Of a stretch of 64,000 nt of DNA, positions 61,931 to 62,272 are shown one piece after another (position 1 is the stretch's first letter; the number at the start of each line of letters is the position of its first letter). The translations under genes and the position numbers were made by a program. The DNA is taken from positions 372,001 through 436,000 of the forward strand of contig JACDOF010000001.1 of assembly GCA_017656235.1 (NCBI GenBank). Reading direction: 5' to 3'. The notes under the pieces were generated by a model. That model made no database searches. It was not told the origin of the DNA and worked only from the letters and a program-made list of their open reading frames with translations. Source of the stretch: Brevibacillus sp. Lineage in GTDB: Bacteria > Bacillota > Bacilli > Brevibacillales > Brevibacillaceae.

Positions 61931-61949
61931 TCCGGGCATAGTCCAGTTT
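61931..61949 (+). repeat. Terminator-like 19-bp repeat, copy 1
   Basis: TCCGGGCATAGTCCAGTTT matches the terminator core at 62207-62225 at 16 of 19 positions; the changes weaken its stem, so it looks like a degraded copy. Lies just after dut. Confidence 0.65.
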
Positions 61950-61972
61950 CAGACTGCAGACAAAGTGTCATG

Positions 61973-62175
61973 AAGGGACCAATCGTCCTGTTCGCGCTGT
62001 TGCCTGACCAGCAAGGATGTACAACTGCCCGCTTCGAAAACGATCCGTGGGGGCGAGGGCAAACCGGCTCAGCATTTCAGTGTAGCACCGAGTTGCCCTC
62101 GCTTTTCCCCACGTCCACGTTTCTTACGCTCGGTTGGTCAGGCAAAGGCGCTCGTCACGGACTATTGGCACCCTT
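61973..62175. repeat. ~200-nt nested inverted repeat of unknown nature
   Basis: No credible gene. The two halves pair in successive perfect blocks: AAGGG/CCCTT (61973-61977, 62171-62175), CCAAT/ATTGG (61979-61983, 62164-62168), GTCC/GGAC (61985-61988, 62159-62162), GCGC/GCGC (61994-61997, 62148-62151), TTGCCTGACCA/TGGTCAGGCAA (62000-62010, 62135-62145), CGTGGGG/CCCCACG (62046-62052, 62107-62113) and GCGAGGGCAA/TTGCCCTCGC (62053-62062, 62093-62102). A 30-nt apical loop has a further weak stem. It resembles a MITE-like or structured RNA element; identity not established. Confidence 0.8.
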
Positions 62176-62205
62176 CCCTTGGAAACAGGTTTTTCTGCAA
62201 TCCGG

Positions 62206-62231
62206 AACCGGGCATAGCCCGGTTTTTTTTT
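62206..62231 (+). terminator. Intrinsic terminator after dut region
   Basis: AACCGGGC (62206-62213), loop ATA, GCCCGGTT (62217-62224), then T to 62231. It precedes ymxH by about 40 bp. Copy 2 of the 19-bp repeat is within it (62207-62225). Confidence 0.93.
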
Positions 62232-62272
62232 GCGTATGTAAGATAGCGAGACGGTGAGAGGGGGAGTCCAAC

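Follow-up and report, generated by a model that had tools for sequence, protein, structure and literature searches.

Palindromic DNA has been described as a target of transposition, and Siguier et al. (2015), as cited in PMC5678879 and PMC4923244, are credited with palindrome targeting by some members of the IS1182 family. In the sections drawn on here, Wan et al. (2017, PMC5678879) describe that IS1272, an IS1182 member, replaces stem-loops, and pathway b of their Fig. 13 depicts an alternative: a cruciform is joined at its 5′ feet, and the whole stem-loop is thereby duplicated. The corresponding sections of Furi et al. (2016, PMC4923244) describe insertion of IS1272 and TnSha1 into hairpins that are partly deleted in the process; several of these hairpins are terminators. 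The locus that we analyzed, a palindrome between dut and ymxH of a Brevibacillus sp., has the stem-loop target of an IS1272-like replacement and lacks the removal of the stem-loop without target duplication. Since a whole stem-loop is found on both sides, the elements described here would follow the alternative drawn in PMC5678879.

Results

Extent and anatomy of the palindrome

We folded positions 61960-62190 of the window (the whole 64-kb stretch of DNA that was analyzed) and obtained -101.2 kcal/mol, compared to -74.7 (sd 5.0) for dinucleotide shuffles (z -5.27, with 0 of 200 shuffles as good). Folding of 61949-62206 as single-stranded DNA gave a z of -5.36. The nested hairpin that the initial annotation had placed between dut and ymxH is therefore real, with a stability far above that of shuffled sequences. 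Its proposed span, 61973-62175, is a true palindrome but covers the inner part only, as pairing continues into the two terminal inverted repeats listed in Table 1. Pfam analysis of the neighbors identified a dUTPase upstream and a PRC-barrel protein and dipicolinate synthase A (DpaA) downstream. A 95-aa ATG frame at 61970-62257 has no Pfam match, in agreement with the earlier view that the palindrome encodes no believable protein.

A repeat search revealed an 18-nt direct repeat outside both ends of the palindrome, within which we recognized two copies of a terminator hairpin with minimum free energies of -3.4 (left copy) and -10.9 (right copy). The statement that the palindrome is not a terminator was thus correct for the palindrome itself, which is nevertheless located inside a duplicated one. 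A terminator scan matched 62204-62226; one such match is no more than shuffles give (mean 0.7), so the right-copy terminator call rests on conservation.

Table 1. Features of the element and its flanks (window positions)
Feature	Position	Strand	Basis and remarks
Complete MITE, 257 bp	61949..62205	+	End-repeat pair, 2 mismatches in all; ends uncertain by ~2 bases
Left terminal inverted repeat, TCAGACTGCAGACAAAG	61949..61965	+	15-base end-pattern count; same ends on IS1182-type elements of G001
Right terminal inverted repeat	62189..62205	-	2 mismatches to pattern
Conserved hairpin fold of body (models R1, R2)	61991..62156	+	R2 match and conserved pairs
Left copy of duplicated terminator hairpin	61932..61948	+	Decayed, without T-run; direct repeat with 62208-62224
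Right copy of duplicated terminator hairpin	62208..62224	+	Intact, followed by T-run

Copies in the genome and empty sites in relatives

When a 321-base query was searched against the 3.6-Mb genome from which the window derives, we obtained 42 matches, the site itself included, 12 of which cover most of the element. Aligned in one orientation, the intact copies start with TCAGnnTGnAGACAAAG and close with its near-inverse. The 15-base end pattern (≤1 mismatch) occurs 159 times in this genome, compared to 18 times for the reversed control, and longer and mosaic elements with the same ends are also present (107 to 615 bp). The initial annotation had called for a search for further copies and named a single copy with no compensatory changes as the outcome that would speak against both a mobile element and a conserved RNA; the analysis did not give that outcome. 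At one further site in this genome (L047:436-868), an element is apparently inserted within the hairpin of another element. A remnant carrying the body fold lies near a contig edge (L057:1-556, C21:1-556), beside what we take by eye to be the end of an IS256-type transposase gene.

The site between dut and ymxH contains a single terminator and no element in both congeners examined, G001 and G002, which answers the initial question of whether empty sites exist. Similarly, G001 and G002 each have one hairpin and no element at the site of L006, and at the site of L002 one hairpin copy is present in G001. Among the 17 whole-genome ymxH loci listed for relatives, 13 have a related single terminator before ymxH and the other four have other sequence there.

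The element is thus short (257 bp), noncoding (the longest frame has no Pfam match), and present in 42 matches; it has terminal inverted repeats and a target duplication, its sites are empty in congeners, and its ends are common to autonomous 1.55-kb elements of congener G001. These findings bear out the earlier proposal of a MITE or other nonautonomous mobile repeat, and by these sequence characteristics the dut-ymxH palindrome is the body of a MITE.

A probable autonomous partner of the IS1182 family

In G001, some of the end repeats are separated by 1,539 to 1,548 bp, a span that contains one long gene. Two products of this gene scored 486 and 479 bits against the NCBIfam model of the IS1182 transposase (cut-off 270), which places the G001 transposase in this family. 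The genome holds 23 IS1182 transposase matches, and we examined 13 copies. Hairpin repeats of 18-29 bp flank eight of these 13, seven of the eight being identical on both sides, and the remaining five are without a flanking repeat. The two ends of the G001 element differ at base 17 (C or G), a difference that the window element keeps. Two pairs of neighboring IS1182 copies share a hairpin on their outer sides only (G001:C1:2309510-2317135 and 3273920-3278570; L279-L282 and L289-L294), as would be expected of copies that moved as one composite element.

Because an intact IS1182 transposase was not found in the assembly of the window's own genome (31 contigs; weak model matches, the best at 26.8 bits), we infer mobilization from the congener: the common ends and the common mode of target duplication suggest that a transposase of the G001 type moves the window MITE. 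The family looks stranded in its host genome, with copies that may have outlived a lost transposase. An IS4/IS1634 partner, suggested by the long variable duplications (PMC2266710, in part), was considered and rejected, the partner in G001 being IS1182. The two PF01609 matches in the window's own genome are on contig C12, with none of these ends nearby.

Terminator hairpins as duplicated targets

To describe the target, we collected end-repeat pairs from loci of five genomes, allowing a total of up to four mismatches per pair, which gave 97. Flank similarity exceeded the 99th percentile of mismatched flanks in 63 of the 97 pairs. Direct repeats of 14-36 bp (median 22) were found at most four bases from both ends in 61 pairs. 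Not all of these are independent, as a single hairpin serves three tandem elements in L086, and two of the 61 pairs also figure among the 13 autonomous copies above. Nearly all of these repeats (58 of 61) fold better than 95% of their own shuffles, with a mean of -12.2 compared to -3.5 kcal/mol. The 36 pairs without an abutting repeat include false pairs, decayed sites, and one-sided hairpins. As judged from these flanks, the whole target stem-loop is duplicated on both sides of the element.

A T or A tract lies beside the repeat in 43 of the 52 elements with one listed body match and is absent from nine. Relative to the body, the tract has the same direction in 16, the opposite direction in 13, and is present on both sides in 14. 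Most insertions are thus at terminators, and both orientations occur. Decay of the hairpin copy without the T-run, visible in the window, is not general: among 35 elements with a one-sided tract, the copy with the T-run is more stable in seven, equal in 21, and less stable in seven.

Two further arrangements were observed. In L003 and L090, and in L289 and L294 of G001, the two flanking hairpins have matching stems, but one of them carries its loop in the opposite orientation; for L003 and L090, a simple duplication model does not predict this. In G011, two or three elements stand in tandem with copies of the same hairpin between them (L086:313-1348 and L089:530-1232), which could reflect a second hit on a duplicated hairpin or amplification of the unit.

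A conserved fold in the body

We aligned the homologous cores of 12 copies from the window's own genome with nine from G011 and one from G007 (alignment A1). RNAalifold predicted 40 pairs, nine of which have kept double changes. Pairing cells amounted to 98.3% compared to 90.7% in shuffles, double-change cells to 77 compared to 32.2, and the covariation score to 0.267 compared to 0.132 in shuffles and at most 0.069 in slid controls. Two of the five measures were not above shuffles, namely double-change pairs (9 versus 8.0) and pair types (17 versus 21.2). When we searched 149 relatives from 73 genera with a covariance model of this fold, 40 relatives in 16 genera had matches. We then used 45 matches from 35 loci, all 35 of which match, as a second alignment (A2), which is fitted to the model, so that its figures lean towards it: paired cells make up 93.5%, double changes occur in 31 of 40 pairs (24.2 in shuffles), there are 320 double-change cells (77.5), and the covariation score is 0.491 (0.156 in shuffles, 0 of 500 reaching it; at most 0.095 when slid). 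In these 45 sequences, the stems vary freely, with almost no variation in an internal loop around CUGYCCGCU and in the facing CGCUnGGu.

Model R2 scored 135 bits at the window element, its sole good match in the 64-kb window. Other modules of the same genome have this fold at 46-84 bits, fragments scoring lower, and elements whose ends are different carry it as well. On the same strand as IS1182 transposase matches, and 58-149 nt upstream of them, fold matches were found in G004 (4 of 4) and G008 (2 of 7), where the end pattern was not found with up to two mismatches. The fold was present in just two of the 30 transposase loci searched (L100 and L102), and the autonomous element of G001 is without it. 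In G018 (L197:1467-2996) and G023 (L202), noncoding tandem units of ~518 bp follow directly after a terminator. In each unit, the body fold is accompanied by another long hairpin (GAGGAAACAGGAGAAA and its inverse), and the ends of the units resemble another inverted repeat.

Known RNA families were considered and rejected: Rfam 15 gave no match in the window at the gathering score, permissive E-values yielding subthreshold matches only. At the fold in 20 further loci Rfam also gave none, the one match in those loci being a T-box elsewhere. When 99 genomes were searched with the DNA of the window element, only its own genome matched, so sequence alone misses the wider family. R2, applied to 398 genomes of the phylum with no more than seven candidates scored in each, returned the window's own genome and one weak match (30 bits), a weak negative.

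Discussion

Proposed mechanism

Very probably, a DDE transposase of the IS1182 family has moved, in trans, the MITE whose body is the dut-ymxH palindrome, duplicating a whole terminator hairpin. The basis for this in the DNA sequence is a multicopy element that shares its ends with IS1182-type elements of a congener, lies in terminator hairpins with the whole hairpin on both sides, and has a single hairpin at its empty sites. Weighing against this reading are the 36 of 97 end-repeat pairs and the five of 13 autonomous copies that have no such repeat, the missing intact transposase in the host assembly, the inverted loops in L003 and L090, and the absence of the body fold from the G001 element. 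In the pathway that we propose, the terminator would be extruded as a cruciform, the transposase would join the 3′ ends of the element to the 5′ foot of each hairpin, and repair would copy the whole stem-loop to both sides. As one hairpin copy keeps the T-run, the host gene could keep its terminator, which may make terminators tolerable landing sites. Much less surely, the conserved body might, as a DNA hairpin, bring the two ends of the short element together. An extension of this idea, which we put forward tentatively and consider doubtful as a whole, is transposition by shape at both ends. The enzyme would read the foot of the target hairpin, and the large conserved DNA hairpin of the mini-element, with its nearly invariant internal-loop bases, would hold the paired ends of that element in a matching geometry. 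On this view, the fold is an undescribed portable cis module, common to elements that differ in their ends and occur in relatives of Brevibacillus and in other Bacilli.

Alternative readings of the body

Selection on RNA should favor G-U pairs over A-C, and a palindrome kept as DNA should not. In the variable stems, we counted 16 G-U pairs, 22 A-C mismatches, and 1243 standard pairs; since G-U is no commoner than A-C, DNA rather than RNA pairing is indicated. The earlier suggestion of a structured RNA is borne out in part, as different genera have kept the fold through many compensatory changes. The absent G-U preference, however, points to a DNA palindrome. We favor a body that acts as DNA, an RNA role being less likely. 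Were the body instead a functional structured RNA, for instance a leader controlling the transposase, carried in mini-elements or acting by itself, one could account for covariation above controls (save for two of the five A1 measures), for nearly invariant internal-loop bases on one strand, for the fold matches upstream of transposases in G004 and G008, and for tandem units that come after a terminator. Set against this are the G-U count, the occurrence of MITE bodies in either direction relative to the terminator, and the 28 of 30 transposase loci from which the fold is missing, and we consider a functional RNA rather unlikely.

The paired changes could also reflect template-switch correction between the palindrome arms, the body having no function of its own. 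Copying of one arm from the other would be expected to leave few G-U pairs, and among the 12 copies from the window's own genome the stems diverge by 3.9% compared to 12.5% in unpaired columns. Such correction should, however, erase asymmetric internal loops, which are nearly invariant in the 45 sequences, and the fold is also found on elements whose ends are different; this explanation therefore strikes us as improbable. A regulatory leader of ymxH-dpaA, proposed in the initial annotation, is scarcely credible, having its position alone in its favor. The element was not found before ymxH in the 17 listed loci of relatives, and a search with model R1 of 209 kb, comprising 18 ymxH loci and 24 other named loci, gave no match (best E 0.18). 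The same element also occurs at dozens of other sites, adjoining unrelated terminators in both orientations, and a terminator stands between it and ymxH. As an ancestral function, the leader is already refuted.

Comparison with known systems

Dozens of natural insertions, by MITEs and by autonomous elements, have a whole terminator stem-loop as the duplicated target. These support a structure-directed duplication pathway, which for the IS1182 family we found solely as a drawn alternative and which would explain target duplications of variable length. In addition, a large hairpin fold with nearly invariant loop bases is carried on mobile elements of many Bacilli genera, and its role as DNA or RNA is directly testable. 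Among the openly licensed PMC papers listed by our searches, we recognized none that reports either the body fold or the duplication of entire terminator hairpins by IS1182 elements.

As far as the cited sections describe them, IS1272 and TnSha1 of staphylococci (PMC4923244, PMC5678879) resemble the elements reported here in their transposase family (by the NCBIfam model) and in their stem-loop targets, which are often terminators, lack a sequence consensus, and lie downstream of genes. They differ in that they remove or replace the stem-loop with no target duplication, whereas here the stem-loop is on both sides. The ISMac2-linked MITEs of Methanosarcina acetivorans (PMC3852290) are likewise short noncoding relatives of an IS1182-family element; by the table in that source they are 160 and 169 bp long with direct repeats of 4 and 0 bp, and on this description they are set apart. 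Similarly, the structured bacterial MITEs QMITE2 and BOX (PMC10969869) are intergenic and have a stable predicted stem-loop and, in QMITE2, end repeats, although QMITE2 has direct repeats of 7-9 bp according to a figure legend of that review and is set apart by description. An IS1182-linked MITE is thus a known kind of element, and what is new is its mode of duplication together with its conserved body.
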